Shown: one piece after another, positions 2,755-63,700 of the stretch
How positions within the stretch are numbered: position 1 is the stretch's first letter
Layout: each line of letters opens with the position of its first letter
Assembly (NCBI RefSeq): GCF_013401555.1
Contig: NZ_CP058552.1
Location: forward strand, 2,480,001 to 2,544,000
Length of the DNA stretch: 64,000 nt
Origin: Paenibacillus sp. E222
Lineage (GTDB): Bacteria > Bacillota > Bacilli > Paenibacillales > Paenibacillaceae
Direction of reading: 5' to 3'
Translations under genes and position numbers: made by a program
The notes under the pieces: model-generated
Databases searched by the model: none
Told to the model about the DNA's origin: nothing
What the model saw: the letters and a program-made list of their open reading frames with translations, nothing else

Positions 2755-2911
2755 AGCAGCCAACGTAGTGAAGGGAACGGAATCGATTCTGAAGAAGCGG
2801 TAGCGTTCGCCTTTATCCCCGGATTTTGTCCTATGGAATAGGACATTCAAAAAATCGGGGGATAACAGTGATCGAAAGAACGATCCGTAACCGTAACGGC
2901 CACCTGCTGCT
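2755..2911 (+). repeat. Long palindromic intergenic element, copy A (short form)
   Basis: Core arms TTATCCCCGGATTTT and AAAATCGGGGGATAA flank a perfect apical hairpin, GTCCTAT-GGA-ATAGGAC (2828-2844). Outer arms AGCAGC/GCTGCT close the structure. It shares the blocks AGCGTTCGCCTTTATCCCC and GGGGATAACAGTGATCG with copies at 4772, 34272, 44048, 54511 and 63450. Unlike those, this copy lies 23 bp downstream of a minus-strand gene end instead of in front of a start codon. Confidence 0.75.
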
Positions 2912-2933
2912 CACCAGTCACTTATTCCCGTGT

Positions 2934-3983
2934 TTAGTCGATAAATCCTTCCATTACTGCCGTTGGCATCATATTCGACTGCCATGCGCCTTTGCCGTAC
3001 CCGCCGTTATAACCTGGTGTAGCCTGAGGCTCCCAGTAGAATACACCTTTACCTTTGCCATTAGGCAGGTTGCGGATTTGGTTTTTCATCGACGCAACGA
3101 AGCTTTTGCCTGCCGCTGCCTGATTATTATCCATGCCTATTTCAGAAACGATAATTTCCTTACCATACCGGTTGATCAGATCCTTGGCGTTGTTCACAGC
3201 ATTGGTGACAGCGGTGTTCCAGCCGGAAGCGGAAGGATAGAGGGACATGGCAATCATGTCAAAGTTGGCACCGTTATTGATCAGTCCACCGATATTCCAT
3301 ACAAAGAGGGCATTATCATCTCCGCCCGCCAAGTGAACGATTGTTTTGGTGTTGGTGCTGATGGACTTCACGGCATTGTGGCCCGTGTTCACCAGCCATG
3401 CATAATTTTTCATGTTGGTGGATGCTTTTCCGTCTTCCCATAACATACCGTTGCTTGTTTCGTTACCGATTTGTACCCAGTCCGGGGTTACACCTTTGCT
3501 CTGCATGGCCATCATAACTTCACGCGTGTGATTCCATACAGCGTCCATCAGCTGCTGGAACGTGTAGTTTTTCCAGGCCGCAGGTTTCGTTTGTTGACCC
3601 GGGTCAGCCCAGGAATCGCTGTAGTGCAGGGTCAGCATGACACTCATGCCTGCATTTTTGGCACGCAGGGCCAGAGCAGCTGCACGATCTTTGTTCATGT
3701 AACCGTTTCCATAATCATTCGAAGGATTAACAAAGACACGAATACGAACGGAATTGATCTGGTAATCATTTTTCAAAATATCAATAATATCACGCTGCAC
3801 GCCGTTTTTGTCTTTCCATTTGTAGCCTTGCGCTTCCATCCCGGGCACCCAACTGATATCGGCTCCTTTGGCGAAGCTCGGTGCTGCACTGGCATGCTGA
3901 CCTGCGGGCAGCATAATGGAGGTGAATAACAAAACAAAGACCAGAGCGATGGATGTTTTGAAACCCCTTACATTTTTGAACAT
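2934..3983 (-). CDS. ganB: Secreted arabinogalactan endo-beta-1,4-galactanase (GH53)
   Basis: A 349-residue GH53 enzyme that hydrolyses beta-1,4-galactan side chains of pectin outside the cell. The start at 3983 is set by GAGGAGG nine bases upstream and yields a typical signal peptide: basic MFKNVRGFK, a hydrophobic core, then cleavage after ASA near residue 33. In the mature (beta/alpha)8 barrel the acid/base glutamate is E175 in QIGNE and the nucleophile is E281 in IIVSEIG, with the family's long N-terminal GADISWVPGME segment. Length fits single-domain bacterial galactanases. No importer or beta-galactosidase gene is adjacent, so it appears to be a lone secreted enzyme here. The ganB symbol follows the B. 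subtilis homologue. Confidence 0.88.
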   Translation of the reverse strand: MFKNVRGFKTSIALVFVLLFTSIMLPAGQHASAAPSFAKGADISWVPGMEAQGYKWKDKNGVQRDIIDILKNDYQINSVRIRVFVNPSNDYGNGYMNKDRAAALALRAKNAGMSVMLTLHYSDSWADPGQQTKPAAWKNYTFQQLMDAVWNHTREVMMAMQSKGVTPDWVQIGNETSNGMLWEDGKASTNMKNYAWLVNTGHNAVKSISTNTKTIVHLAGGDDNALFVWNIGGLINNGANFDMIAMSLYPSASGWNTAVTNAVNNAKDLINRYGKEIIVSEIGMDNNQAAAGKSFVASMKNQIRNLPNGKGKGVFYWEPQATPGYNGGYGKGAWQSNMMPTAVMEGFID

Positions 3984-4111
3984 TACAATATGCCTCCTCG
4001 AATATGGGTTGAGTTGCAACCTAATTATAGCGAGTATTGTTTGCTCAGCTACAGGGTTCATTTCCAATATTTTGGTTGTTTTTTCAACCTCTCCCGAAAA
4101 AAGACAAAACA

Positions 4112-4135
4112 AAAAGCCGTCCGAAGACGGCTTTT
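4112..4135 (-). terminator. Perfect 10-bp stem terminator
   Basis: AAAAGCCGTC-CGAA-GACGGCTTTT. On the minus strand the stem has a TTCG tetraloop and is followed by TTTTTGTTTTG. It would end leftward transcription from the small gene at 4330-4557 before the galactanase promoter. The 194 bp between that gene and this hairpin carry no supported gene, only an AGGAGGTG on the minus strand near 4255 that no credible frame uses. Confidence 0.75.
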
Positions 4136-4329
4136 CTACCCGTGGCGCTTTTTGAAACCTTGATCCGTATCCCGCGCCTCCACCAGAATCAGTTTATTTT
4201 GAGCTAGTGGATCGGGTAAGGGACACGTTCAACATGTGATTAGATATGTTGACGCACCTCCTTTCCTTGTGGCAAGAGTATACAACACTCTTTTCCGGAA
4301 AGCTAGTCTTTTTTTATATTTACGCAAAA

Positions 4330-4557
4330 TTATTTTTCGGTTTGGAACATCGTGATATCCCGGTCATAATGGCTCTTCGTACCGTTATCGTTGCGAATTC
4401 TCACGCTGTCTTCGCTGATCTGCTCTACGATGCCACGACCCACTTCACAATATACGCCAGCCGGATCTTCCTGCCATGCAGTTACTGTGCATTGGGATAG
4501 TGCAGCTGTGAAAAACTCTATATTTTTTTGTAACGTTCTAGGTTTGTTCGATTTCAT
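4330..4557 (-). CDS. Small protein of unknown function (75 aa)
   Basis: A 75-residue soluble, mixed-charge protein starting at 4557 after AAAGGAG with a six-base spacer. A longer frame upstream lacks a binding site. It has alternating hydrophobic residues in the second half (VYCEVGRGIVEQISEDSVRI), suggesting a small beta-barrel, and two cysteines. No family was recognised. It stands alone, reading away from ppk, with a terminator downstream. Confidence 0.65.
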   Translation of the reverse strand: MKSNKPRTLQKNIEFFTAALSQCTVTAWQEDPAGVYCEVGRGIVEQISEDSVRIRNDNGTKSHYDRDITMFQTEK

Positions 4558-4771
4558 TATATACTCCTTTAACAAAAACAATTTTAGAATGTGGACAGTA
4601 ACCGGACATTTTACACTGTAGATCACTTTACTCTGTCTCCTGCTCTTTGTAAAGGGATGGAAAAAGTTATCGGCATGAGGTATCATTTACATAAATTTTA
4701 CATAGCGTTTACACTACGCTGACGCTTGTAGCCAATCACGAATAGTACAATTATATTAGCATCTATAAAAA

Positions 4772-4950
4772 ATTGAACTAAACATTTACACGAGAACGGA
4801 GAGGACAGAAAAAACCTGTAGAAGCAAAGCGTTCGCCTTTATCCCCGGATTTTCTCCATTGAAAAAGGAAATAAAAAAATCTGGGGATAACAGCGATCGG
4901 AAGGTTGTTCTGTCATCGGAGTGGAAAGTGTAAATACTCTTTAGTTCAAT
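4772..4950 (+). repeat. Long palindromic intergenic element, copy B (short form), upstream of ppk
   Basis: Outer inverted ends ATTGAACTAAA (4772) and TTTAGTTCAAT (4940-4950) enclose TTTACAC/GTGTAAA, GACAGAA/TTCTGTC and AACCT/AGGTT pairs, then the core TTATCCCCGGATTTT with AAAATCTGGGGATAA. The whole unit can fold into one imperfect hairpin about 179 nt long. It ends 44 bp before the ppk start codon, so it would probably be in the ppk leader or promoter region. Confidence 0.8.
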
Positions 4951-4994
4951 TTATCTAACCAAGAATAGATATGTAACAAATTCGGAGGCCATAC

Positions 4995-7076
4995 ATGCAT
5001 AGAGATGTCAAAACAGGTAACTACGTTAACCGTGATTTAAGTTGGGTGGAATTCAATCGTCGTGTGCTCCAGGAGGCTCAAGATCCAACGACACCTCTGC
5101 TGGAACGCATGAGGTTTCTTGGTATTGTTGCCAGTAATCTGGACGAGTTCGTAAGTGTAAGGGTAGCGGAGACGAAAGAGAAGATCAAGGCTGGATTTAC
5201 GCAAAAGGATTTTACGGGCTACACCCCTTCCGGGTTGTACCGCAGATTGATTAAACGAACGGGGACCATGGTCGCCGAGCAATATAAAACCTATCGGGAG
5301 CTCATTCGTCTTCTCGCCAAGAAAGGCGTGCATTTTCAGGAATATACCGATCTGAATATGACGCAACAGCGAGCAATGGACCAATATTTTCATGATATCA
5401 TTTTTCCGGTATTAACACCGATGGCGATCGATTCGAGCCGGCCATTCCCACTGGTACACAATAAGTCTGTATATCTTTCCGTGATGCTGCAGAAGGAAGA
5501 AGAGCAGGAGGGCGAGCCATTTTTGGCTATTGTTCAGGTTCCCTCTAATCTGCCGCGCGTGGTTCAGGTGCCTTTAAGGGCGAATAGTAAAAAGAAAACG
5601 TTCATTTTGATCGAAGATCTCATCAAACATCATATTCATACCTTATTCAGCGGATATGTGCCGCTGGCTGTTCAGGAATTCAGGGTGACCCGCAATGCGG
5701 ATCTTTCCATTAATGAAGAAGAAGCCGAGGATTTACTTGAGGCGATCGAGAAGGAGCTGCGGCGCAGACGCCGGGGAGCACCAGTACGACTGGAAATTTG
5801 CAAGGATTTTCGCCCGGATGCGTTGCTGGAGCTGCAGGAAGAGTTCGATATTCAAGACCCTGTGTACGAGATCGATGGACCGCTGGATTTGAGCTTTCTG
5901 GCCGGGTTTGTAGATAGTTTGGATGGTTTCTCTCATCTGAAATATAGTCCGGTGCAGCCTGTGTATCCTCTGGAGTTTCTTCCTCGGGAAAGTCACTTCG
6001 AACTGCTGCGTAAACGGGACGTGCTCGTGCATCATCCATACGAATCGTTCGAACCGGTAACGGACTTTATTGTGGAAGCTTCGGAAGATCCACGCGTGAT
6101 GGCGATCAAAATGACGTTATATCGGGTGAATGGGGATTCCCGTCTGATCCCTGCACTGGCTCATGCAGCCGAGAGCGGCAAACAGGTAACGGTTGTTGTT
6201 GAATTAAAAGCCAGATTTGATGAAGAGCGGAATATTGCATGGGCCCGCACGCTGGAGAAGGCAGGTTGTCATGTCGTATATGGATTGGTCGGCTTAAAGA
6301 CCCATGCCAAGATTATTCTCGTCGTACGCAGGGAACAGAGTGGTCTGAGAAGGTACGTGCATGTTGGAACAGGTAACTATAATGAAAGTACAGCCAAAGT
6401 GTACACCGATGTAGGACTGTTTACCTCCAATCCCATCATTGGTGAGGACGCATCGGAATTGTTTAATGAGATTACCGGATATTCAGGACCCAAAGCGTTG
6501 CAGGCATTCCGCGTCGCCCCTGACGGCATGAAGGATGAACTGTTCGCGCTCATTCGTCGGGAAAGGGAACATGCCTTCAAGGGAAGACCGTCCAGAATTA
6601 TTGCCAAAATCAATTCCTTATCCCATCAGGATATCATTGATGAATTGTATCTGGCATCTCAAGCTGGAGTGCAGATCGATCTGATCGTGCGCGGTGTATG
6701 CTGCTTGCGTCCGGGGGTAGAGGGACTTAGTGAGAATATTCGGGTGATCAGCATCGTGGATCGGTTTCTGGAACACTCCAGACTGTTTTATTTTGAAAAT
6801 AGCGGGAACCCGGATGTGTATCTGTCCAGCGCAGACTGGATGACCCGGAATTTGAAGCGAAGAATAGAACTGATGTGTCCCGTGTTTGATCCGGAGCTGA
6901 AAAAGATGCTTGTCGACATATTGAATCTGTCGCTCATGGATAATGTGAAGGCCAGAGAGCTCATGCCTGGCGGCAATTATGTTTTTGTACAAAATGAAAA
7001 GCCCCCGCTGAGAAGTCAGACGGAGGCGATGGGCATTATCCCTTGGAAGCCTGCTGAATGGAGTGCGTTAACGTAA
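4995..7076 (+). CDS. ppk: Polyphosphate kinase 1
   Basis: A 693-residue PPK1 that reversibly makes inorganic polyphosphate from ATP. It has the family order: N-terminal helical domain (NRDLSWVEFNRRVLQEA), head domain, then two PLD-like catalytic domains. The autophosphorylated histidine is in KTHAKI at about residue 437, preceded by the phosphate-binding arginine region KARFDEERN and followed by GTGNYNESTA. Length equals the family norm. The start follows CGGAGG with a seven-base spacer. Its 3' end overlaps that of ppx on the other strand by 41 bp, pairing the synthesis and degradation genes convergently. Copy B of the palindromic element lies directly upstream. Confidence 0.97.
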   Translation: MHRDVKTGNYVNRDLSWVEFNRRVLQEAQDPTTPLLERMRFLGIVASNLDEFVSVRVAETKEKIKAGFTQKDFTGYTPSGLYRRLIKRTGTMVAEQYKTYRELIRLLAKKGVHFQEYTDLNMTQQRAMDQYFHDIIFPVLTPMAIDSSRPFPLVHNKSVYLSVMLQKEEEQEGEPFLAIVQVPSNLPRVVQVPLRANSKKKTFILIEDLIKHHIHTLFSGYVPLAVQEFRVTRNADLSINEEEAEDLLEAIEKELRRRRRGAPVRLEICKDFRPDALLELQEEFDIQDPVYEIDGPLDLSFLAGFVDSLDGFSHLKYSPVQPVYPLEFLPRESHFELLRKRDVLVHHPYESFEPVTDFIVEASEDPRVMAIKMTLYRVNGDSRLIPALAHAAESGKQVTVVVELKARFDEERNIAWARTLEKAGCHVVYGLVGLKTHAKIILVVRREQSGLRRYVHVGTGNYNESTAKVYTDVGLFTSNPIIGEDASELFNEITGYSGPKALQAFRVAPDGMKDELFALIRREREHAFKGRPSRIIAKINSLSHQDIIDELYLASQAGVQIDLIVRGVCCLRPGVEGLSENIRVISIVDRFLEHSRLFYFENSGNPDVYLSSADWMTRNLKRRIELMCPVFDPELKKMLVDILNLSLMDNVKARELMPGGNYVFVQNEKPPLRSQTEAMGIIPWKPAEWSALT

Positions 7077-8562
7077 CTCCCCAAGCTTCCTGTAAATCCT
7101 TGACGGCATCGTCAAGGCCACTGAGTTCCAGTAACGGCTCGGCTGTACAGATGAATTGCATCTGCAGCGAGTCGTTTTCTTTTGTTGCCTTTATAGCGGT
7201 AATACTTTCAGAACGATTAATCGCTTCAGTCACGCGCAGCAGAGAGCCTAAGCGATGGGCATGCCGTTCGTCCGAATCCTTGAGAATGTCCCTGTGCTTA
7301 TGCAGCAGCTGGGGCGTTCTTTTTTTGGGATGATAATCGGCTGCAATGGCACTCAGGATGGTCTCCCGGTGAGATAGTCCGTAGATGCTTGCATTCATGA
7401 TCCAATAGGCCGAGTGCTGGGGATACCGGAAGTAGTTAATCTGTTTTCCAGCCATGTGCAGCATGGAGACCGTGTACAGAATCCGGGCATCTGCTGGATC
7501 GGGAGCACTACCTTGCAGGGCAGTATACAGGGTGAGCGCATCATGGTGAATCCGATTCAGGCGTTTCTCCGGAATGGGTGGGCCAAAATGAATGAAGTTG
7601 CGAATGCTGTCCCGCAGCGCATCTGGCACGACCGGCTTACCTTCAGCCAGGAGATCCCTTAGCAAACCATCCCGTAATCCCGCTCCGCTCACGACATAAC
7701 GATCCCCCTGGATGATTCGGAAGACCGTCCGCAATATGAGTACACCTGGAACAATAATGTCGGCACGATCCTTAGCCAGTCCGGGTACTTTCTTGCGCTG
7801 TGCCGAGGTTAGATGTGGCAAAGAACGAGCAATATTTTCCATCTCTTCTGCACCGATTTCATAATGATGCGTAACCGGTAATGAGTATTGCGTTCTCTTC
7901 TGCTCAATTTTGGCCAGTGTACGCATGGTGCCCCCAAGTCCAATAAGAGGTAGTCCGGGATGTTGTCTGATCCAATCCAGACCGCTCAATGCCTGTATAA
8001 CTTCATTACATAGCGCAGCCGCATTTGCTTCAGTCCACTGATCTTCCCCACCATAACGGGCATGTGAGTTAACCGCACCGATAGGCAGAGAGATGCTGTG
8101 CAGTCTTGTTCGATTACGGAATACAGTGATCTCGGTACTGCCGCCGCCAATATCCACGACATAACCATCCGCGAGATCAATCGATTGGGTGACACCAAGG
8201 AAACCGTAATAGGCTTCCTGATCACCGGATACACATTCGATAGTAAGTCCCGTTTCAGCTTCCAACCAACCTATAATTTCTGGAGCATTGCCTGCATTCC
8301 GAATGGCAGCCGTCGCTGCAGCGCGGATAAGCTTGGTTTGATAAGCTTCGCAAGTAGCCCTGAATTGTCGCAAAATCGTAATGGCCTTGTCCAGTGAATG
8401 TCGCAGGATGGTTCCGTCTTGTTCAACCACATTGCTTAGACGAGCGGCATATTTGTCTTCATGAATGATACGGTAGGCTCCATCCTGATCGAGTTCATAA
8501 ATAACCAGACGAATGGAATTGGAGCCGATATCGATAATTCCGAGTATTTCGTTATGTGTCAT
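7036..8562 (-). CDS. ppx: Exopolyphosphatase (Ppx/GppA family)
   Basis: A 508-residue enzyme that removes terminal phosphates from polyphosphate (and possibly the gamma or 5' phosphate of pppGpp). It has an ASKHA-fold N-terminal half with the phosphate loops GIIDIGSNSIRL (residues 8-19) and DIGGGSTEI (about 143-151) and a C-terminal HD-like helical domain, so it is the long form of the family. The start follows AAGGAG with a six-base spacer. It is the second gene of a minus-strand unit, 26 bp after the small membrane protein gene. The tail-to-tail 41-bp overlap with ppk means the two mRNAs share complementary 3' ends. Confidence 0.93.
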   Translation of the reverse strand: MTHNEILGIIDIGSNSIRLVIYELDQDGAYRIIHEDKYAARLSNVVEQDGTILRHSLDKAITILRQFRATCEAYQTKLIRAAATAAIRNAGNAPEIIGWLEAETGLTIECVSGDQEAYYGFLGVTQSIDLADGYVVDIGGGSTEITVFRNRTRLHSISLPIGAVNSHARYGGEDQWTEANAAALCNEVIQALSGLDWIRQHPGLPLIGLGGTMRTLAKIEQKRTQYSLPVTHHYEIGAEEMENIARSLPHLTSAQRKKVPGLAKDRADIIVPGVLILRTVFRIIQGDRYVVSGAGLRDGLLRDLLAEGKPVVPDALRDSIRNFIHFGPPIPEKRLNRIHHDALTLYTALQGSAPDPADARILYTVSMLHMAGKQINYFRYPQHSAYWIMNASIYGLSHRETILSAIAADYHPKKRTPQLLHKHRDILKDSDERHAHRLGSLLRVTEAINRSESITAIKATKENDSLQMQFICTAEPLLELSGLDDAVKDLQEAWGVTLTHSIQQASKG

Positions 8563-8588
8563 AAGAATCTCCTTCTACAGAGGTTAAT

Positions 8589-8843
8589 CTACCCGATTTT
8601 CAGCAAGGCAGCCATGGCTTCCGGTGAACCCGGAGGCGTCGAGGAGAAGGGCGTGGTCAGCATGACCACAATGATGAAGACGATAAAACAAGCAAACAGA
8701 ATACAACTTACAGCAAAACCGCGATTGCTTTTCTTCATAAACAGTCGAATACCTGTAACGAATAGAAGTACCGTAATGGCTACCAGAACGATAGAAATTG
8801 CAAAATAGGCTACGCCGTACAGTGATTTAAAAAATGATTCCAT
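8589..8843 (-). CDS. Small two-helix membrane protein
   Basis: An 84-residue protein with two clear transmembrane segments (about residues 10-32 and 44-64) separated by a short basic loop MKKSNRG, ending in a proline-rich tail. The start at 8843 follows AAGGAG with a 12-base spacer. It lies 26 bp upstream of ppx on the same strand, so the two are probably co-transcribed. A link to polyphosphate metabolism is only suggested by this position. No family was recognised. Confidence 0.72.
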   Translation of the reverse strand: MESFFKSLYGVAYFAISIVLVAITVLLFVTGIRLFMKKSNRGFAVSCILFACFIVFIIVVMLTTPFSSTPPGSPEAMAALLKIG

Positions 8844-9079
8844 GTCTTCTGAACGCTCCTTAGATCCTCATATTTAAGCCTCTCCAAACCATTCCTTAGT
8901 AGCATACGATAGATTGATGCGTTTGAAAAGCAAACCAGGCGCCTGTTCCGGCCTTGAACCAAGCTGATGGACTATATCAACGGAAAAGGGGCCCCAGCCT
9001 TGGACAGACATCCAAGAAAGCACGGCTTCTGTTGAGTATGTATAAGGAAGGACTATTGTTCACGAAAGGAGATCAACCC

Positions 9080-9739
9080 ATGTCGAGACAGCTTGCAAGC
9101 AAATGGCTGAAGACAGCGGCGCTGTTGAAATACCCGGTAGCTGCTGTCCACATTCCACAGACGAAGGCGTTCAACTCGGGGAATCTGCTAAACATGCTTA
9201 GTCATCATGGAATGGTGTATATCAAACCTGTTGTCGGTGGTGGTGGTTACGGTGTCATTAGAGTATCAGCAAGCGGAGGAACCTATCGGTACACCCATAT
9301 GAAAATAACCCGTTCTTTTACTCAGTTTAATCAGATGTACCGCTCCCTAATCCGTGTAAAAGCCAGACGGAGATACCTGATTCAGCAAGGCATTCATTTG
9401 GCGACCATTCAAGGCAGACCTGTCGATTACAGAGTCAAAGTCGTCAAGACGGAAAGAGGCTGGGTATTCCGTTCTATGGTGGGACGGCTCGCTCGTCCAG
9501 GGCTGGTCGTGACCAATCTTAGCAAAGGAGGAACGATGCTGTCCGGTAGGAGAGCGCTCGCTCTGTCCCTACCTCATATTTCAGGAAAACATAAACGTCG
9601 CGAGATGCGTTCACTGACACTCACCTGTACGAATATCATGGAACGTCAGTTCCCGGGTGTGGGGCAGCTTGGTTTCGATTATGGACTGGATTATTCAGGG
9701 AAAATATGGATTTTGGAAGTGAACACCAGACCGCAATGA
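9080..9739 (+). CDS. YheC/YheD-family ATP-grasp protein (spore coat associated), short form
   Basis: A 219-residue ATP-grasp protein of the YheC/YheD family, associated with the B. subtilis spore coat. AAAGGAG eight bases before ATG 9080 fixes the start. The open frame continues upstream to a TTG without a binding site. Conserved blocks are the glycine-rich loop KPVVGGGGYGVI, the lysine/arginine strand RVKVVKTERGW and the metal-binding C-terminal LGFDYGLDYSGKIWILEVNTRP. The protein stops one residue after the N-x-R-P motif, so the short C-terminal helix most relatives have is missing. This may be a natural short variant. The ligated substrate is unknown for the family. Confidence 0.82.
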   Translation: MSRQLASKWLKTAALLKYPVAAVHIPQTKAFNSGNLLNMLSHHGMVYIKPVVGGGGYGVIRVSASGGTYRYTHMKITRSFTQFNQMYRSLIRVKARRRYLIQQGIHLATIQGRPVDYRVKVVKTERGWVFRSMVGRLARPGLVVTNLSKGGTMLSGRRALALSLPHISGKHKRREMRSLTLTCTNIMERQFPGVGQLGFDYGLDYSGKIWILEVNTRPQ

Positions 9740-9920
9740 AAATGGTTCAAAAATCTAAAAAAATCCAAAGAAAATCCGATACTAATATAGTAGGAAACTA
9801 GAATGAAAAACGTTTGAATTTTAACAATTAAGGGTAATTTACTCGCATCAACTCTTGAAACTATGAATTTATTCTAAAAAAAATGCTCTGATAATCGTTC
9901 TGTTCGATAGGCTGCGGTCC

Positions 9921-10020
9921 TGTGTATAAATACTGTCCACACTATCCACGTTGATCAATCAACATTTTTACCATTTATCAACAAACTATACACAGGATTT
10001 CCACATGACATTGTGGATAA
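9921..10020. promoter_or_regulatory. Cluster of DnaA boxes upstream of sda
   Basis: Two perfect DnaA boxes occur on the minus strand: TGTGTATAA at 9921-9929 and TGTGGATAA at 10012-10020. Between them are two single-mismatch boxes on the plus strand, TTATCAACA at 9975-9983 and CTATACACA at 9986-9994, and weaker ones at 9933-9941, 9942-9950 and 9997-10005. In B. subtilis the sda promoter is bound and activated by DnaA, so this cluster is expected to couple Sda synthesis to replication status. The rest of the interval 9740-9920 is AT-rich and shows nothing else. Confidence 0.8.
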
Positions 10021-10023
10021 CAA

Positions 10024-10058
10024 GAACGCTTGTTCTCTTTATAAATCTCTGATATGAT
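10024..10058 (+). promoter_or_regulatory. sda promoter with an overlapping LexA-like box
   Basis: TTGTTC at 10030-10035 and TATGAT at 10053-10058 are spaced 17 bp, placing +1 near 10065. The inverted repeat GAACGCTTGTTC (10024-10035) matches the GAAC-N4-GTTC core of the Bacillus SOS box and covers the -35 element. Regulation by LexA is an inference. The match to the fuller consensus is imperfect in the central bases. Confidence 0.6.
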
Positions 10059-10095
10059 AGTTTTGAGGAAAAAAAAGGAAAGGTTGTGGCGGGAA

Positions 10096-10239: not shown

Positions 10240-10260
10240 AGATCCTCATTGCAGGCAATG

Positions 10261-10512: not shown

Positions 10513-10513
10513 G

Positions 10514-10560: not shown

Positions 10561-10596
10561 TTGTGTCTTTTATGTTCTATATCATTCCATAAGGAA

Positions 10597-13673: not shown

Positions 13674-13685
13674 GATTTATCCAAT

Positions 13686-18539: not shown

Positions 18540-18554
18540 TGCCAAACATAAATT

Positions 18555-34271: not shown

Positions 34272-34475
34272 TAAACGTATTTACACGATAGAGGGCAGAA
34301 AGAATTCGAAGAAGCGAAGCGTTCGCCTCAAAAGCTTTCTGAAAGAAAGCTACATCGGAAGCATACGCTATCCCCGGATTTTACCCTTTAGAAAAGGGAA
34401 TCAAAAAATCTGGGGATAACAGCGATCGGAGGATATTTCTGACCGCGCAGTGGTCCCGTGTAAATTTTTTGTTTC
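34272..34475 (+). repeat. Long palindromic intergenic element, copy C (long form), inside the glycan operon
   Basis: Core TTATCCCC-type arms (TATCCCCGGATTTT with AAAATCTGGGGATA) flank the apical stem CCCTTT-AGA-AAAGGG. The long form carries an added block, AGCTTTCTGAAAGAAAGCT, that makes its own hairpin, then CATCGGAAGCATACGCT. Ends are TATTTACAC and GTGTAAAT. It separates the first GH38 gene from GH125 and ends about 49 bp before the GH125 start. Confidence 0.8.
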
Positions 34476-41837: not shown

Positions 41838-41953
41838 TTTTCCAAGCGTGATCGGATCAATTCTTTGTGTAGTGTCTAACCGAAGTTCTGCGTACTGTCA
41901 TGGAATGGATAATGCTTTTTCCAGCTGAACATGTTGAGTTATTCCTCAAGTTT

Positions 41954-42041
41954 ATATAGAATGAACAGTAGAATTACAAGCGATCGAAGGTTACCCTGCC
42001 ATCATGATGGTCATCGTAAAATTCAATTGTTCATTCTATAT
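41954..42041 (+). repeat. Deletion relic of the palindromic element (copy G) with perfect 14-bp inverted ends, upstream of dnaI
   Basis: ATATAGAATGAACA (41954-41967) and TGTTCATTCTATAT (42028-42041) are exact inverted repeats around 60 bp. The interior AGCGATCGAAGGTTACCCTG, then CCATC, matches the right half of copies B, D and F (AGCGATCGGAAGGTT, CTGTCATC). The left half and the core stem are missing. It lies at the right edge of the glycan island and ends 27 bp before the dnaI start. The interval 41838-41953 contains nothing recognisable. Confidence 0.6.
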
Positions 42042-44047: not shown

Positions 44048-44250
44048 TGGAACTAATTATTTACACAGTAACGGAGAAGACAGAAAAAACCTGGAAAAGC
44101 GAAGCGTTCGCCTAAAGCTTTCTGAAAGAAAGCTGCATCGGAAGCATTCGCTATCACCGGATTTTCCCTTTGCAAAAAGGAATCGAAAAAATCTGGGGAT
44201 CACAGCGATCGGAAGATGGTAGTGCAATCGGAGTGGTAACAGTGTAACCT
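44048..44250 (+). repeat. Long palindromic intergenic element, copy D (long form), upstream of uvrC
   Basis: Ends TATTTACAC and GTGTAA, GACAGAA block, the long-form insert AGCTTTCTGAAAGAAAGCT and GCATCGGAAGCATTCGCT, core TATCACCGGATTTT with AAATCTGGGGAT, apical CCTTT/AAAGG stem. It ends about 41 bp before the uvrC start codon. With the trxA terminator it fills most of the 420-bp gap. The part between (43919-44047) holds nothing recognised. Confidence 0.8.
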
Positions 44251-44290
44251 TTTATTTATACTTTTTTCGGGAAGGAGGACCCACCGAATT

Positions 44291-54292: not shown

Positions 54293-54510
54293 GTAAAGCG
54301 AAATTTCGGTCTATTAATAAAGTTAATGACTTAGCAACTTAACGGAAAAGAAGTAGACACATAGAGGCAAAGCGTACGCGGAGCTTCTCAATGTTACTAC
54401 TAACCAGAATGAATTATGGCTATTTTCAGTAAAGCGCCTTGCGATGCTTTAGAAACTAAATACTGCATCCAGTATGAATGGAGTGCAGTTTCCAGCAAAG
54501 TGACCCTGCT

Positions 54511-54660
54511 TGCACGACGTAGCGGAGGAAGCGGAAATGCCCAGAAGAAGCGAAGCGCTCGCCTTTATCACCGGATTTTAACCCTGGGAAGGGTTGATCA
54601 AAAAAATCCGGGGATAACAGCGATCAGAAGGGCATTCCGCTGCCGGAGCGCCACCCGTGC
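54511..54660 (+). repeat. Long palindromic intergenic element, copy E (short form), between sdhA and sdhB
   Basis: The core is the family's: TTATCACCGGATTTT with AAAATCCGGGGATAA and apex AACCCT/AGGGTT (54580-54595). The outer arms differ from other copies but pair with each other: GCACG/CGTGC and GCGGAAATGCCC/GGGCATTCCGC. The element lies inside the sdhCAB operon, ending 66 bp before sdhB. The preceding 54293-54510 holds no gene, only short inverted repeats such as ATACTG-CATC-CAGTAT. Confidence 0.8.
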
Positions 54661-54725
54661 ACCAAAAGAGTAACTTTGCGCATCAGCAACACCAATCATC
54701 GTCACTCAAAGGAGGGGACAACGAT

Positions 54726-55584: not shown

Positions 55585-55666
55585 GTACTCGCAAAGGATC
55601 CGGGCTAGTCACATAGAATATGGTATACTAAGGGGATGGATTTGGGCGGAAGAAGGAGGGGGACGC

Positions 55667-56608: not shown

Positions 56609-56647
56609 CAACATAAAGAATATAGAGCATAAAGGGAGGTTAGCCAG

Positions 56648-57382: not shown

Positions 57383-57562
57383 TTAGGTCAGGAATAAACC
57401 GCTGTAATGAATTGGCATACTAATGTTCGGGCTACTGAGCGTAGTATTGTAGAGCATAGTGATGTTTCATCGTTTATCCATGTATTTTATTTGCGCCGGA
57501 TCTACCTCAGAGCATGCTTGTCTTACCGGACTAGAACCCGTTAGGCAAAAGGAGCGATTGTC

Positions 57563-58195
57563 ATGCTGACCCGAAAAATGCTGGGCCAAGGATTGCCTGC
57601 TTTATGGACAGAGCGCCTTGTTCTTCGATCATTACGTCAGAGTGATTACAGCACATTGTCGGAGCTGTTTTCCGACCCGCAGGTGATCCGTTATGTAAAC
57701 AGGGGGAGTCAGCCCACACCAATCCGGGCTCGGCGATTATTGAATCAGATTCGCAGCAGCAGTGCCAAGCTGGATTCACTGCATTACGGCATCTGCTGGA
57801 AAGGCAGCGAACAGATCATCGGCATCACTTCATTTCAGCATTGGAACGAACAGAACGGTACCGCACAGATCGGATATATTCTGAACAGGTCCACCTGGGG
57901 TAAGGGAGTCGCGACTGAGGCAGTACAGCGTTTGCTGGAATTCGGTTTTGCCGAGCTTAATTTGTGCAAAGTGGAAGCCCGCTGTTACGAGGCAAATGTA
58001 TCATCCGAACGGGTTCTTTGCAAAAGCGGTATGATTTATGAACGGACCCTGCCCTCGTTTGTTTTGAATCATGAGGATGGTGAGACGCCGGATACTCTGC
58101 TGGATGTTAAGGTGTACAGTTTGTATCGTGAACAGCATGTTCGTTCTCATTGGGAGAATCGCCTGCAAACGTTGGTATCCGACAAGCACGAGTAA
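57563..58195 (+). CDS. GNAT family N-acetyltransferase (RimJ/RimL-like)
   Basis: A 210-residue acetyltransferase of the RimJ/RimL type: TERLVLRSLRQSDY at the start, the acetyl-CoA-binding loop STWGKGVATEAV (about residues 112-123), and the KVEARCYEANVSS strand typical of the family. It uses acetyl-CoA on an amine substrate that cannot be told from sequence. AAAAGGAG precedes the ATG. It stands alone. The 216 bp before the next hairpin hold nothing recognised. Confidence 0.87.
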   Translation: MLTRKMLGQGLPALWTERLVLRSLRQSDYSTLSELFSDPQVIRYVNRGSQPTPIRARRLLNQIRSSSAKLDSLHYGICWKGSEQIIGITSFQHWNEQNGTAQIGYILNRSTWGKGVATEAVQRLLEFGFAELNLCKVEARCYEANVSSERVLCKSGMIYERTLPSFVLNHEDGETPDTLLDVKVYSLYREQHVRSHWENRLQTLVSDKHE

Positions 58196-58411
58196 CATAG
58201 AATAGAGCATATTGCATCAATCCAAAGAGCGCCTTTCAATCAGAAAAATATAGATCGAAATGTTTCTATTGCCGAATAAAATGAAACAGCAGAGGTTTGA
58301 AACGAACTTCAATCATTTGTTACACAATTGAAATATAGCTGCAATTGAACTCTAACAGACAGCGGGTAAACTTATCTCATGACCCCCTTTTTGATAATAG
58401 ATTATGCTGTT

Positions 58412-58442
58412 GGGACCCGCGCTTAGCGGGTTCATTTTTTTT
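58412..58442 (+). terminator. Terminator downstream of the GNAT gene
   Basis: GACCCGC-GCTTA-GCGGGTT followed by CATTTTTTTT, about 215 bp after the GNAT stop codon. Confidence 0.7.
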
Positions 58443-58534
58443 GTCTATATAAGTTTAACTATGGAATTTCTACACCAACACTCCGATGACAGAACTTATA
58501 TAACATCTTTTTTTTATATTAGGATACAAAGAAA

Positions 58535-58566
58535 ACCCCCCACAGCGTTTTTACGCCGTGAGGGCT
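58535..58566 (-). terminator. Terminator of the PHP phosphatase gene
   Basis: On the minus strand CCCTCACGGCG pairs with CGCTGTGGGGG around a short A-rich loop, followed by GTTTTCTTTG, just past the stop codon at 58584. Confidence 0.65.
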
Positions 58567-58583
58567 ATTTTGGTGCTCTATGT

Positions 58584-59393
58584 TTAAAACGGTACAACTT
58601 GCATTTGTTTCTGCTTGAAGTATACCCATTCAGTGAATCCAATCTCTTGCAGACGTGTACGAACGTCATCCAGTTCATCGGCAACACGCTGCGGTTTGTG
58701 GGCATCTGATCCGAAGGTCACCTTCACTCCGTAATGATGCGCACGCTCCAGAATGGCATCGGACGGGTACCAGCCACCACTAAGCTTGGTTTTACCCGAC
58801 GTATTAATTTCAATAGCCACGTTCGATTCTGCAATGACCTGCAGCGTTTCATCAATGGCTTGATCTGCGATAATGTCCGAGAAAGGTGGGTAATTTCCTT
58901 TCATGGCATCAATATGTCCGAGAATCTGGAACATGCCGCTTCGGGCTGATTGCCGAATCAATGCATAGTAACGCTCTTTCACTTCAACCTTACGTGCAGC
59001 ACTTAATCCGTTCCAGCGGGTTTTGTTGAATATGCTGACATCTTCCGTATGATGAACTGAACCAATAATATAATCAAAAGGATATTGCCCCAGTGTATTG
59101 CGATACAATTCGGCATGCACAGGGAAATAGTCGGATTCAATGCCAAGAAGCACATCAATTTTGCCTGCGTATTCTTCCTTCAGAGCCAGTACTTCTTCCA
59201 CGTAATGACGCAATTCCGACTTGCCCATCGCGATCCGGGGAAATGCCTGCTCCTCGTCACTGCCGAAGTAAGGTGTATGATCCGAGATACCGATGACCTG
59301 AAGTCCAGACTGAATACCTGCCTCGATATAGTCGCGAATATTGCCGTCTGCATGACCACAACGAAAATGATGGGTGTGAAGATCAAATTTCAT
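58584..59393 (-). CDS. PHP-domain histidinol-phosphatase-like enzyme (HisJ/HisK family)
   Basis: A 269-residue PHP-superfamily phosphoesterase with trinuclear metal motifs DLHTHH (residues 4-9), GISDHT, GIESDYF, GSVHHTED, GHIDAMKG and FGSDAHKP. This pattern matches HisK/HisJ-type histidinol-phosphate phosphatase, the penultimate step of histidine synthesis, but no his genes are nearby, so a different phosphate ester is possible. AAAGGAAGG precedes the start. It follows the LysR gene on the same strand after 32 bp, so the two form a unit. Confidence 0.87.
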   Translation of the reverse strand: MKFDLHTHHFRCGHADGNIRDYIEAGIQSGLQVIGISDHTPYFGSDEEQAFPRIAMGKSELRHYVEEVLALKEEYAGKIDVLLGIESDYFPVHAELYRNTLGQYPFDYIIGSVHHTEDVSIFNKTRWNGLSAARKVEVKERYYALIRQSARSGMFQILGHIDAMKGNYPPFSDIIADQAIDETLQVIAESNVAIEINTSGKTKLSGGWYPSDAILERAHHYGVKVTFGSDAHKPQRVADELDDVRTRLQEIGFTEWVYFKQKQMQVVPF

Positions 59394-59425
59394 ATGGAAA
59401 TCCTTCCTTTCTCATGGCTCATTTA

Positions 59426-60328
59426 TCATTCTGAACTGATGAACTGGGTCTCCGGCATGCCTTTGAGATCGCTCAGGAATTGCTGCATGGCCGAATTCAC
59501 ATAACGACTTGATTTGTAGATGACTCCGACAGGGTGACTGACCTCCAGTTCACTGAGTGGAATCATGCGCAGTGTGCCTTGCCGCAACTCATGGGCAACG
59601 GATTGTTTGGATATAACGGCTGCCCCGAGATTGATCTCAACCATCCGTTTCACTTCCTCGCTGCTTGACAACTCCATAACGATATTGGGCTCAATATTAT
59701 GTTTTTTGAAAATGCCTTCCGTAAAGCGGCGCCCCACCGTATCCGGAGATAGCAAAATCAGAGGTGTGCTGCGCAGAACATCCACCGCGGCATGCTTTTG
59801 CTTCGCCAGTGGATGGAAAGGAGATACCACAAGCTCGAAAGTGTCATAATACAACACGGACGTATTCAGGTTAGGATTACGCTCCGTAAGATAACCGATA
59901 CCGATATCGACCATACCATTCTCGACCTGGGTATAGATCTGTGAAGAAGGCAGGGATTGGATACTGGTCTTGATGAGTGGAAATTGATCCTGAAAGTAGG
60001 ATAAGACCCGTGGCAAAATCTGAATGGCAATAGATGTGGTTGTACCGAGTCTGATATGTCCCTGAGGGGTCTCATCGAGATCCATCAGCTTCTGTTTCAG
60101 CTCTCCCACGATGTCCAGCATTCGTTCGGCATGTTGAAGAAATACCTGTCCGCGATCGGTGAGGGTGACCGGTTGGTTCCGATCGACAAGAACGGTGCTG
60201 AATTCATCCTCCAGGCTCTTGATCTGGGCCGAGACGGCGGGCTGGGTCAAATTTAGGAGTTCTCCGGCTTTGCGGAAACTCATCGTTTTCGAGATGGTAA
60301 TCAGCGTCTCCAGTTGACTGATATTCAT
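59426..60328 (-). CDS. LysR family transcriptional regulator
   Basis: A 300-residue LysR regulator: N-terminal HTH (MSFRKAGELLNLTQPAVSAQI, residues 15-36) and effector-binding domain beginning HIRLGTTTSIAI. The start at 60328 has AAGGAGG six bases upstream. It precedes the PHP phosphatase gene by 32 bp on the same strand, so it may control that gene or a distant target. The CysB/CynR-like effector domain gives no clear ligand. Confidence 0.9.
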   Translation of the reverse strand: MNISQLETLITISKTMSFRKAGELLNLTQPAVSAQIKSLEDEFSTVLVDRNQPVTLTDRGQVFLQHAERMLDIVGELKQKLMDLDETPQGHIRLGTTTSIAIQILPRVLSYFQDQFPLIKTSIQSLPSSQIYTQVENGMVDIGIGYLTERNPNLNTSVLYYDTFELVVSPFHPLAKQKHAAVDVLRSTPLILLSPDTVGRRFTEGIFKKHNIEPNIVMELSSSEEVKRMVEINLGAAVISKQSVAHELRQGTLRMIPLSELEVSHPVGVIYKSSRYVNSAMQQFLSDLKGMPETQFISSE

Positions 60329-60775
60329 GTATGGCCTCCTTGCACGCAAAATGTCTTCTGTCTATCCATAGGTGGAATCCCGTAACTGGTCATTATTCCG
60401 TTCCTTAAATTATAGGTGATTCAGGACAGCAGGGCAATGAAGGGAACATCATGGATTTGGGGAGGTCCATTAGAACGAGAAATTAATTTTATTTCAAGAA
60501 ATTAAATTTTTAACATTTTAAGAAACAGTAAAAAAGTCCTAAATGCCTTTTGCCATGCCTCTTCATGGCAATGGTTCTTGCAACAGATGCGAAAAGCCTC
60601 GATTTTTCGCTAGAATCAGCTATAAACATTTGCTCCGCGGATGACGATAAATTATAGTACACATGCCTTGCCGAATTCTTGGTGAATTCTTGTACGTGAT
60701 AAAGTATAATAAATTTATTGAATATGGGACTTTTGGTGTGTGACCAATAACCCAGTGTAAGGGGGACAATAGACA
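60329..60775. other. Intergenic region with two hairpins, no gene
   Basis: Between the divergent LysR and cheX genes. It contains the perfect hairpin TTGCCATG-CCTCTT-CATGGCAA (60550-60571) and a second one, GCGAAAA/TTTTCGC (60589-60610). Neither is followed by a T tract. A TATAAT near 60706-60711 may be part of the cheX promoter, but no good -35 stands 16-18 bp ahead of it. Confidence 0.45.
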
Positions 60776-61234
60776 GTGAAAGCGGAAGTGATTAATCCTT
60801 TCCTGGAATCCGCACGGAACGTATTCGAACAGCTCATCCAGGTTTCGCCTTCCACCGGGAGTCTTGGCGTGAAAAATGTGGAGTACATTGCAGACCATGT
60901 CTGGATCGTGATCGGAATGACTGGACAACTAAGCGGAAACATCGTGTTTGGAATACAAGAGTCGGTTGCATTGAAAATCGTTTCTGCCATGATGGGCGGC
61001 TTTGTCATTACTGAAATGGACGAAATGAGTAAAAGTGCTATTTCGGAACTTGGCAATATGATTAGCGGCAATGCAAGTACCATCCTGTCCAATCAGGGTG
61101 TCGTTGTTGATATTACACCTCCGCAAGTGATGAATTCTGAATATCTGACTTCCTTTAGTGCAACGAAGGCATTGAGCATTCCTTTGATGATGGACGGAAT
61201 CGGTGAGATGGATATTCAAGTGATGATCTCGTAG
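60776..61234 (+). CDS. cheX: CheX-like chemotaxis phosphatase
   Basis: A 152-residue protein of the CheC/CheX/FliY family, which dephosphorylates CheY-P. The catalytic motif E-x2-N is visible in SAISELGNMISGNAS (about residues 85-99), and the single copy fits CheX. The start is GTG 60776 with AAGGGGG 11 bases upstream. No other chemotaxis or flagellar gene is in the window, so it is an orphan here. Some CheX homologues serve other response regulators. Confidence 0.85.
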   Translation: MKAEVINPFLESARNVFEQLIQVSPSTGSLGVKNVEYIADHVWIVIGMTGQLSGNIVFGIQESVALKIVSAMMGGFVITEMDEMSKSAISELGNMISGNASTILSNQGVVVDITPPQVMNSEYLTSFSATKALSIPLMMDGIGEMDIQVMIS

Positions 61235-61290
61235 AATAGAACCATACGCCTCTAGGGGCAATATGTGTTCAATACGGGAGGACGTCGGGT

Positions 61291-62064
61291 ATGCTAAAAG
61301 ATCAGGTTGTTTTTATCACGGGTGCGTCGAGCGGAATTGGTGCGCTCTGTGCACAGATGCTGATAGAAGAAGGAGCCATCCCGATTCTGGCTGCCCGCTC
61401 GTGGGACAAGCTGGAAGAGATTGGTGCTTCGCTGAAAGGGCAGCATGAACTACTCACGTTAGACGTAACGAATAATGAGCAAGTTCAGATAGCCGTGGAT
61501 GCGATGTTGCAGAAATACGGACGAATCGATATTTTGCTGAATAACGCTGGTTACGGAAAATTTGCGGCCATGACGGATATGTCTGTGCAGGAATTCGATG
61601 AGATGATGGACGTTAATTACATGGGCATTGTTCGCTGTACCAAGGCAGTGCTGCCGCAGATGTTACAACGAGGCAGAGGACAGATCGTGAATGTAGCTTC
61701 CATGGCTGGCAAGATCGGAACTGCAAAATCTGCTTCATATACAGCAACCAAACACGCCGTACTTGGCTTCAGCAATGCCCTGCGCCAGGAACTTCGCAAG
61801 ACCGGAATCACGGTAACGACCATTAATCCCGGACCCATCGATACACCTTTCTTCCAACGGGCTGACCCCTCCGGTAACTATGTTAATAATGTACGCTGGA
61901 TGATGCTGAAGCCGGAAGAGGTTGCAGGGCATATGATCCGGGCGATGAAGAAGCGCAAGGAAGAAGTGAATCTGCCCAGACTGGCTTCGGCTGGAGTGTG
62001 GCTGTATCAGCTATTTCCGCGTCTTGCTGACAGGCTGTCGCACGGTGTAATGAATCAGAAGTAA
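61291..62064 (+). CDS. Short-chain dehydrogenase/reductase
   Basis: A 257-residue classical SDR with cofactor motif TGASSGIG (residues 10-17), NNAG (about 88-91), and the catalytic triad S in VASMAG plus YTATK (YxxxK). The arginine after the second strand (AARSWDK) suggests preference for NADP(H). It resembles YqjQ-type SDRs, whose substrates are unknown. CGGGAGG precedes the start. It follows cheX after 56 bp on the same strand, possibly in one transcript. Confidence 0.9.
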   Translation: MLKDQVVFITGASSGIGALCAQMLIEEGAIPILAARSWDKLEEIGASLKGQHELLTLDVTNNEQVQIAVDAMLQKYGRIDILLNNAGYGKFAAMTDMSVQEFDEMMDVNYMGIVRCTKAVLPQMLQRGRGQIVNVASMAGKIGTAKSASYTATKHAVLGFSNALRQELRKTGITVTTINPGPIDTPFFQRADPSGNYVNNVRWMMLKPEEVAGHMIRAMKKRKEEVNLPRLASAGVWLYQLFPRLADRLSHGVMNQK

Positions 62065-62143
62065 GATGCAACAATGGGCATCATATATCGGATAAGAGAA
62101 GGGCTCCGCCGAGGGGCTTTTCTTTTTTTTGTTAAATGTGAAA

Positions 62144-62187
62144 AACCGCCGCCTTGCTCTTCATCATTCAGAGCAAGGACGGCGGTT
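62144..62187 (-). terminator. Strong terminator of the helveticin J-like gene
   Basis: AACCGCCG plus CTTGCTCT pairs with AGAGCAAG plus CGGCGGTT around a nine-base loop. On the minus strand the stem is followed by TTTTTC. A weaker T-rich hairpin near 62100-62130 may end the SDR transcript on the plus strand. Confidence 0.8.
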
Positions 62188-62245
62188 GGGGAGGATCTTG
62201 GCGGAGTGACCAACGGTTATGTGTTATGCCTCTTTCAGCAGTCCG

Positions 62246-63238
62246 TTAGAAAATGCTATCGGGAACGTAGTATATTTTCTGCCCGTTCGCTTTATTGCCT
62301 GGATCGGTAACGATGGTGAAGTATACGTTCCCGTTCTTGGTCTGTACGCCCTCAATTTCATGTTTCCCGACATTTGTTATTTTCACAAGGGATTGGTAAG
62401 CACCTGAACTTGAAATCTTGGCAATCTGAGGAGTTTCCCCTTCTCCCCCGCCTGATGTAAATATTTGCGTTTTGCCCAGCAGGTCTACTCCCTGAAACGA
62501 TCCGTTGGGTCTGATAATGCCACTGCCCGACTGCGTGAAGCTGGAAACAGCGGCCTTCACCGCAGCTGCGCTGTCCATTCGAACCTGCTTGTTATTATCC
62601 AGAAGTTTGTTTAAAGCGACCGTGTCATAAATGGACCAGGTGACGGTGGTTTTGTCCTTCGTTTGTACGCGAAAAACGGTATAATTGCTATTGCCGCCTC
62701 CGTCCACACGCCGGGTTTCACCCAATTTCGAACCGGTTTTGTTGGCGTAATTCATATACGTGAACCGATGTAGATCGGTATAATCCACGGTTTTGCCTGC
62801 CGCGTATTGCAGTCTGGCTACCTGTAGTGACCAAAATTCAGGTTCCGAAGGATCGGCTTTTGAACTAAAATAAAAATAATTGGACCCATTGTACGTATAC
62901 ATATCCAGCGTTTGGCAATGACCGCTGTTCGTGATGGTCATTTTATCCACGTATACAGCGTCGCTGCCCTTTATGAGTAATCTGGAGAGGTGACATGTCC
63001 CGTCCACACGTTGCGTAACGTACACGTATTTATCCGCGATGTATGCCTTTTGCACAACACGGTCATGCTTGAGTCCTTTGAGATGGTATGCCAGTTTTGC
63101 CGAGGCGTTTACGGTTTTTCCCGGAGATGCGGCCATTGCAGGCAGAACAGACAAGCCAAATAACAGTAGTGCAAGAACAAAAGATGTTGTTATTTTCCAT
63201 TTTCTTTTCTTTAAGCTCAAGGATCGATTCTTAAACAT
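62246..63238 (-). CDS. Secreted helveticin J-like protein (class III bacteriocin family)
   Basis: A 330-residue secreted protein with a basic N-terminus (KNRSLSLKKRKWK), a hydrophobic signal core and a cleavage site after AMA near residue 36. The mature part consists of repeated short beta-strand blocks such as VVQKAYIADKYVYVTQRVDGTCHLSR, consistent with a beta-propeller, and resembles the helveticin J family of large bacteriocins. Two cysteines (in GTCHL and GHCQT) may form a disulfide. AAAGGAGG seven bases before ATG sets the start. It is monocistronic with a strong terminator. No immunity gene is adjacent. Antibacterial function is inferred from the family and is not certain. Confidence 0.6.
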   Translation of the reverse strand: MFKNRSLSLKKRKWKITTSFVLALLLFGLSVLPAMAASPGKTVNASAKLAYHLKGLKHDRVVQKAYIADKYVYVTQRVDGTCHLSRLLIKGSDAVYVDKMTITNSGHCQTLDMYTYNGSNYFYFSSKADPSEPEFWSLQVARLQYAAGKTVDYTDLHRFTYMNYANKTGSKLGETRRVDGGGNSNYTVFRVQTKDKTTVTWSIYDTVALNKLLDNNKQVRMDSAAAVKAAVSSFTQSGSGIIRPNGSFQGVDLLGKTQIFTSGGGEGETPQIAKISSSGAYQSLVKITNVGKHEIEGVQTKNGNVYFTIVTDPGNKANGQKIYYVPDSIF

Positions 63239-63449
63239 AGGTATACCTCCTTTAGAAAGATAATATGACTTTAAATATAAGCACCTCTAAAAACTATATC
63301 AAATAAATAATACTATATTTTCCAATTTAAAGAATCATTCTAAAACAAAAATTTCTGTCCCTGAATAAGATTTGGTCCACAGGCTTTTTTCGCATATAAT
63401 GAAAGGTAATGTGATGACAGGCTTCGGTTTTATTAGTACAAGCATGGAT

Positions 63450-63700
63450 ATATATGTTCAACTAAGCATTTACACGATAACGGAGAGGACAGAAATAATC
63501 TGAAGAAGCGAAGCTACTTCGAAAGCATACACTTCGCCTAAAAGCTTTCTAAAAGAAAGCAACATCGGAAGCATACGCTATCCCCGGATCTCCCCTTTTC
63601 AAAAAAGGATTCATTCAAAAAAATCTGGGGATAACAGCGATCGGAAGGTTGTTCTGTCATTGGAGTGTTAGTGTAAATATTGTTTAGTTGAATGTATATA
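63450..63700 (+). repeat. Long palindromic intergenic element, copy F (long form), upstream of the helicase gene
   Basis: The longest copy: outer ends TTCAACTAA and TTAGTTGAA, TTTACAC/GTGTAAA, GACAGAA/TTCTGTC, an added CTACTTCGAAAGCATACACT block, the long-form hairpin AGCTTTCTAAAAGAAAGC, and the core TATCCCCGGAT with ATCTGGGGATA with CCTTTT/AAAAGG at the apex. It ends 36 bp before the helicase ATG. The stretch 63239-63449 before it is AT-rich with no gene. Confidence 0.8.

Follow-up and report, generated by a model that had tools for sequence, protein, structure and literature searches.

A dispersed palindromic repeat of Paenibacillus with the marks of a mobile element and of selection on a folded strand

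In a 64,000-nucleotide (nt) stretch of Paenibacillus sp. E222 (contig NZ_CP058552.1, positions 2,480,001 to 2,544,000; hereafter the window), long palindromic elements recur between genes, six as copies and one as a relic, and raise the question of whether such an element is a mobile repeat or a functional RNA. A first reading of the window, made from its letters alone (the sequence-only reading), proposed that the element is structured and under selection, either as a mobile repeat of the miniature inverted-repeat transposable element (MITE) or bcr type or as a leader RNA that acts in cis. The computational analysis described here supports both halves of that proposal together. The mobile half is carried by more than 100 dispersed copies, by nested insertions and by presence or absence between sister species, and the half that invokes selection on a single strand is carried by covariation under phylogenetic control, by an interior excess of G-U over A-C pairs and by a sense bias between tandem genes. 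The element is probably a MITE-like mobile structured repeat whose core is selected as RNA, and which doubles as a transcribed leader RNA.

All six copies proposed for the window are found on the plus strand by a covariance model, with E-values from 9e-39 to 7e-19 (Table 1). The shared block GGGGATAACAGCGATCG, allowing up to three mismatches, has eight matches in the window versus 0.16 expected by shuffling; six of these lie on the plus strand inside the copies and two are echoes on the minus strand. Across the host genome (7.52 Mb) the covariance model finds at least 127 copies, a lower bound because 150 of the 2499 first-look candidates were scored. Most matches are about 150-220 bp long, and the element is short, non-coding and dispersed, as MITEs are. 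The motif of its 3' strand, GGGGATAACAGCGATCGGA, occurs with no more than two mismatches at 103 places genome-wide (54 on the plus strand and 49 on the minus strand), and the pattern written backwards occurs at none. From 60 stretches and 30 earlier loci, 110 anchor matches with up to four mismatches were collected and sorted by a simple rule into 57 basic copies, 33 longer copies and 20 without a recognisable 5' core or full sequence. A hairpin module is present in 30 of the 33 longer copies, at two alternative positions (19 and 11 copies, respectively); copies 3 and 6 of the window have an irregular module, and the one remaining longer copy has none.

The sequence-only reading had staked itself beforehand on further copies in related genomes. 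All 75 genomes of the genus that were searched contain the family, with copy counts that in many of them rest on the best-scoring candidates and are lower bounds; five low-copy genomes have 1 to 10 copies each. Within the bacterial family of the host, which we take to be Paenibacillaceae, a match is found in 160 of 197 genomes, which represent 13 of the 19 genera, and three genomes of two other genera contain 41, 118 and 60 copies. In a sample of the class, 27 of 299 genomes match and all 27 belong to the host's own family, with kinship unlisted for 252 of the unmatched genomes. The closest named relatives of the host by UvrC (99%) are P. taichungensis and Paenibacillus sp. OK003. Low-copy species conserve the core motif but diverge in much of the stem sequence, and copies recur at identical loci across several of these species, next to genes that, judged from the protein starts, appear to be acyl-CoA dehydrogenase-like, methyltransferase-like, Tex-like and ABC-binding-protein-like. 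Some low-copy loci (L122, L123, L124, L131, L140) also carry, downstream of the element, tandem repeats made of pieces of its 3' strand, such as units with CCGATCCGCATTCGAAGCA. Whole elements lie close together at G045:C66 29703-30305 and at L132/L137, and four weaker model matches stand in a row at 250-260-bp spacing on the minus strand of G000:C1:434483-435414, a possible tandem array.

The full element consists of outer inverted arms and a core of about 130 nt. The arms of the commonest subfamily read cTATATAAGTTGAACTAAACATTTACAC on one side and GTGTAAAT..AGTTCAACTTATATAg on the other. The core has helix P2 at its base, an internal loop rich in purines (GAA/GGA), a three-way junction that includes a GC-GNA-GC mini-hairpin, helix P3 (UCGC/GCGA), a long helix P4 (UUAUCNCCGGAUUUU / AAAAUCUGGGGAUAA) and an apical stem that varies freely. 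The junction is conserved and has invariant unpaired bases, and the optional module, a hairpin of about 38 nt, is inserted beside the mini-hairpin. As the sequence-only reading had observed, the apical stems change in sequence and retain pairing in the copies inspected.

Covariation was measured in an alignment (A1) of 53 of the 57 basic copies, with module-bearing and truncated copies excluded. The consensus fold of A1 has nested helices, to which a pair scan added the mini-hairpin, of two pairs, and a long-range pair that closes the junction. Both additions covary, the mini-hairpin pair as G-C in 47 copies, A-T in 5 and G-T in 1, and the long-range pair as G-C in 46, A-T in 5 and G-T in 2. 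Change on both sides is seen in 36 of the 44 pairs counted, and 90.3% of cells hold standard pairs, compared with 31-45% when the partner strand is slid; none of 500 shuffles reaches any of five pairing measures. Because shuffles ignore relatedness, a tree-based null was used, in which a tree was inferred, 200 alignments were generated by simulating each site separately, starting from a consensus root, and 36 interior pairs were scored. The interior of A1 has 28 of these 36 pairs with two-sided change, 171 such cells and 95.8% of cells paired. The simulations have means of 9.2 pairs, 20 cells and 84% and maxima of 16, 45 and 89.6%, and 0 of 200 reach the observed values. Covariation, the second point on which the sequence-only reading had staked itself, thus goes beyond the phylogeny-aware null, for a structure derived from the same sequences as those tested; an independent alignment would be a stricter test.

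The half-changed pairs indicate which form of the nucleic acid is selected. Pairing in double-stranded DNA would give G-T and A-C intermediates about equally often. Interior pairs of A1 have G-U to A-C in a ratio of 58:9, or 26:9 without the one pair in which G-U dominates, and 14 pairs lean toward G-U versus one toward A-C; the simulated interior has about 113:90. The outer arms, at 25:23, have no asymmetry. The interior excess suggests that the core is selected as a single strand, of which RNA would be the simplest form, and the outer arms behave like DNA-level ends. The mini-hairpin resembles GCGAAGC, a DNA hairpin of great stability, and folded single-stranded DNA would also tolerate G-T somewhat better; the G-U excess seen in place favours RNA.

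That excess is seen where copy 5 lies between sdhA and sdhB, by comparison with 25 syntenic loci of relatives (alignment A4; 26 rows in two sequence types). Seventeen interior pairs are two-sided, 93.9% of cells are paired and G-U to A-C is 21:1; in the 19 rows of the window's sequence type, 11 pairs are two-sided and the ratio is 8:0. The rows are related, so these counts are of sequences rather than events. At this site species L172 carries a tandem pair of copies, and the presence of two sequence types in sister species points to replacement there or to loss of tandem copies. The asymmetry also bears on the idea that the pairing is neutral, upheld not by selection but by quasi-palindrome correction through template switching. 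Such correction would suit long imperfect palindromes with apical stems that vary yet pair. However, acting on DNA, it should not yield a preference for G-U over A-C in the interior only, and it leaves the covariation across the junction and the conserved mismatched loops unexplained. Neutral correction is therefore considered extremely improbable.

Evidence for mobility comes from elements inserted into one another. Upstream of uvrC, at loci L161 and L162, a complete element lies inside the apical loop of an older element. Copy 4 of the window has the 5' half of the inner element and the 3' half of the outer element, and most plausibly arose by a later deletion. Another nested case is found at L163 and L173, the latter without the outer 3' half, with the older copy uninterrupted at L167 and L182, and two more occur in the host genome near 3,715,064 and 6,988,005. 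From their sequences, the four would be independent insertions, and evidence of insertion of the kind that defines a MITE. All four appear to have entered the outer apical stem at its tip or close to it, in the orientation of the outer element, although the outer stem at 3,715,064 is degraded.

The ends are also those of a MITE, with terminal inverted repeats (CTATATAAGTTGAACT.. arms) in the common subfamily, which begins and finishes as cTATATA..TATATAg; some left flanks, uncounted, read ..tttTATA. The TATATA at both ends of this subfamily might suggest that the outer arms bring or rebuild a promoter, with TATATA as a -10 box, and that orientation simply follows promoters. This was rejected, given that a -35-like box (at least 4/6) correctly spaced ahead of the left TATATA is found in 3 of 51 copies, below the 7.0 expected from shuffles, and a promoter role for the arms is scarcely credible. 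Truncated copies were considered as well. About seven copies have no 5' half, one of 62 5' cores (5785502) has no model match, besides two halves of nested copies, and two copies (2032173 and 6694270) share one internal deletion, similar to one in the relic of the window. Retrotransposition, of which 5'-truncation would be a sign, was set aside because the truncated copies look like mixed internal deletions. In genome G239, six copies (L252, L255, L258, L261, L263 and L246, five with identical model scores) are found inside near-identical insertion sequences, presumably IS1182-like, with GGGGCTGTCCCA ends. Each lies between one end and the transposase and is antisense to the transposase, and is thus cargo.

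The position of the element relative to genes was determined for 106 of the 110 pattern matches, the four with four mismatches being dropped; truncated copies and nested halves were counted singly, and at least two of the 106 (380491 and 1722681) were assigned a neighbour outside the examined stretch. Between tandem genes lie 82 copies, 71 oriented along the genes and 11 opposed (p 7e-12), with another 17 in divergent and 7 in convergent settings. Intergenic regions of these stretches that have no element and measure 100 bp or more are tandem in 66 cases, divergent in 22 and convergent in 19. The sequence-only reading had seen a single orientation relative to the downstream gene; this holds as a strong tendency, with a co-oriented downstream gene for 88 of 106 copies, but not as a law. 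The co-oriented start codon is at a median of about 57 nt from the approximate 3' end of the element, and for 42 of the 88 it is at 20-59 nt, which would leave little space for a promoter between the two in those copies. Orientation according to the replication strand was rejected, as orientation tracks genes rather than forks: copies in divergent and convergent regions are 14 leading and 10 lagging, versus 69 and 13 in tandem regions (Fisher p 0.011). The argument is suggestive, with just six tandem cases that have lagging genes (four along the gene and two against).

The bias extends through the genus. Flanking genes are oriented same/same relative to the element at 22 of 39 loci of genus relatives and opposite/opposite at 5, and at 20 of 26 loci of low-copy species, several of them mutual orthologs, they are same/same (21 with L145 taken on the alternative strand). 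In the two other genera, three genomes (G104, G142 and G239) were represented by their ten best copies each. Excluding the six inside insertion sequences, 24 loci include 10 same/same, 2 opposite/opposite, 10 same/opposite and 1 opposite/same, with 1 lacking callable neighbours. Sense orientation therefore recurs in these genera, but copies follow genes about as often as they precede them. This pattern suits a transcribed element and weakens the case for a 5'-leader role of all copies; in the three genomes a role in the 3' untranslated region (UTR) is as likely as a leader role.

Several observations weigh against a mobile element kept as a leader RNA. Sister species either have no copy at uvrC or have a remnant of it (L177, L171, L230 and L176). 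No target-site duplication was found outside the arms in the aligned ends examined, where TATATA at both ends could mask a TA duplication, and flank comparisons revealed no clean empty chromosomal site, only ragged deletions, tandem duplications and remnants. No transposase or other mobilising enzyme was found, and an autonomous partner with matching ends was not searched for. The outer arms (P1) are paired in just 65.8% of cells over the A1 copies, and copy 4 of the window has been retained despite a broken, unpaired P2. Neighbour calls were made with a home-made gene caller. In the other genera, 10 of the 24 copies (among L237-L268) are flanked by convergent genes and follow the one that is co-oriented with them. 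Finally, a scan of 80 of the 88 co-oriented downstream proteins found 138 Pfam families, none in more than three members, and hence no functional theme.

Some of these same observations would suit a purely selfish MITE, with a fold that serves transposition only, as a transcript or as single-stranded DNA, and a sense position that results from insertion preference or from weak purging. Nested insertions, variable presence between sister species and the lack of a gene theme are all as this explanation would have them, as are convergent sites as numerous as tandem-sense sites in G104, G142 and G239 and the element that hitchhikes inside an insertion-sequence-like element in G239. Against it stand the compensatory changes in place between sdhA and sdhB with their excess of G-U, the loci that are occupied repeatedly across several low-copy species and the 71:11 sense bias in the host genome. 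Pure selfishness is judged a possible but doubtful explanation.

A classical riboswitch that senses a ligand, or a leader autoregulated by a protein, copied many times over, would also explain a conserved three-way junction with invariant unpaired bases in a leader position. The downstream genes, however, share no common pathway, and Rfam offers no counterpart: the window has 0 matches at gathering score and none relevant at E up to 5, and a search of 14 loci (13 of relatives) returned RNase P only. This explanation is very unlikely. With no shared theme in the downstream genes, a generic effect is likelier than the sensing of a ligand.

A MITE-like repeat with a core selected as RNA would thus have the following history. 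Copies spread by transposition, at times landing in the apical loops of other copies. Those of the genus are kept mostly in the sense orientation shortly 5' of genes, such that they would be transcribed within 5' UTRs as leaders that, once folded, would act in cis. The preferred effect, put forward tentatively, is that a compact block in the 5' UTR keeps the mRNA from being degraded or shields the start region from the sequence upstream. A bolder proposal, and an unlikely one, is that of a transposable regulatory RNA, in which one mobile leader has rewired about 100 operons per genome of the genus into one post-transcriptional regulon through a common factor that reads the junction core, whether a lineage-specific RNA-binding protein, an RNase, the ribosome or RNA polymerase. 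If leaders of this kind do control mRNA decay or translation, the genus would share a hidden layer of expression. The family would be a very numerous structured RNA within single bacterial genomes that is absent from Rfam, as well as an unusually clean case for studying the conversion of a mobile repeat into a regulatory RNA, with DNA-like arms, an RNA-like core and old copies constrained in place.

The copies in the window (Table 1) illustrate this variety. The sequence-only reading had placed the elements upstream of genes, which is borne out for copies 2 to 6 and the relic, all 5' of plus-strand genes, but not for copy 1. That copy ends about 20 bp past the stop of a minus-strand GH53 gene (assigned by Pfam), and is thus 3' of a gene and no leader. 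The outer inverted arms of copy 2, in repeat family D5, reach to about 4771 and 4959. The relic, missed by covariance model R1 in the window search, reads as a copy without its interior, with the left arm ..GAATTACA fused directly to AGCGATCGAAGG (at 41979). The extra hairpin module of about 38 nt is present in copies 3, 4 and 6. Copy 5 is housed in a long spacer (54293-54725).

Table 1. Copies of the element, the relic and the hairpin modules in the window (position 1 is the first nucleotide of the window).
Feature	Position	Strand	Description	R1 score	Gene context
Copy 1	2754..2914	+	Type-2 subfamily (GTAGTGAAGGGAACGGAATCGATTCT / AGAACGATCCGTAACCGTAACGG)	133.3 bits, E 3.7e-30	
Copy 2	4782..4939	+	Type-1, without module	167.4 bits, E 9.1e-39	5' of ppk (start 4995; Pfam)
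Copy 3	34277..34469	+	With hairpin module	88.9 bits, E 6.5e-19	5' of GH125 mannosidase gene (ATG 34524; Pfam)
Hairpin module of copy 3	34331..34368	+	Match to module sequence		
Relic	41953..42041 (about)	+	Outer arms and 3' interior strand, from sequence and fold		5' of dnaI (ATG 42068)
Copy 4	44057..44253	+	With module	91.0 bits, E 1.9e-19	5' of uvrC (ATG 44291; Pfam)
Hairpin module of copy 4	44114..44151	+	Module sequence		
Copy 5	54508..54666	+		145.7 bits, E 2.7e-33	Between sdhA and sdhB (ATG 54726)
Copy 6	63466..63682	+	With module and additional partial module	98.4 bits, E 2.6e-21	5' of gene starting 63736
Hairpin module of copy 6	63541..63578	+	Module sequence		

In copy 4 a type-1 5' half seems to be joined to a type-3 3' half, a chimera that the nested insertion at uvrC would have left behind. 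The same site differs in other species. The remnant upstream of uvrC in L176 (about 9900-9960) consists of the outermost arms and part of P2, with the core gone. In L171 and L230 (P. tundrae and strain Root52) the site has a different structured insert at about 9650-9990, with GGAGTAGCGGAGCG, in which a hairpin and AAGCTGCGTAAGCATCC recall the module of about 38 nt. That this insert represents a second repeat family of the host was rejected, since a 17-base probe has two matches in the host genome and its reversed control has four.

No such family in Paenibacillus was reported among the top-ranked results in the open-licence PMC literature, a scope that most subscription papers fall outside. 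The closest comparisons are with repeats of other bacteria, as the available portions of the reports describe them. The bcr1-bcr18 repeats are restricted to the Bacillus cereus group and are 100-400 bp long, with up to 130 copies of bcr1 per genome; bcr1-3 are described as MITE-like, and the mobility of bcr elements is linked to a TTTAT motif (PMC6542083, PMC3446304). Some bcr copies are transcribed in UTRs, transcripts with bcr3 are longer lived, and bcr10 and bcr18 have conserved secondary structure in 5' UTRs (PMC6542083, PMC3446304). Judged by these descriptions, the Paenibacillus family is set apart in that it unites high copy number, strong covariation, a three-way junction, strand asymmetry and sense bias, and the matches of its model in the class sample are all within its own family.

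The BOX elements of Streptococcus pneumoniae are modular (boxA, boxB and boxC), form stable RNA folds and are described as having proliferated in the past (PMC3049150). Operon transcripts include them as extensions at the 5' and 3' ends, they affect neighbouring genes, and pneumococcal repeats are overrepresented between convergent genes (PMC3049150). Convergent sites, in contrast, account for few copies of the Paenibacillus family in its host genome (7/106) but for many in the two other genera (10/24), and its single optional module, found at two positions, is only loosely like the modules of BOX, by description. ERIC and Correia elements occur in Gram-negative groups, and we know of no junction with phylogeny-tested covariation in either. 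Both are described, in the text available, as imperfect palindromes that are transcribed and can alter mRNA stability (PMC3049150). MRSC-65-2 is a multi-copy family with strong covariation and dozens of copies per genome, judged in the accessible part of its report to be more like a selfish element, and consists of one long stem, with a UYCCGG repeat, found in diverse phyla (PMC11109978). By the same description, the Paenibacillus family differs from MRSC-65-2 in that it is branched and is seen in one bacterial family. It is an element that spreads like a MITE and that selection preserves like a structured element of mRNA.

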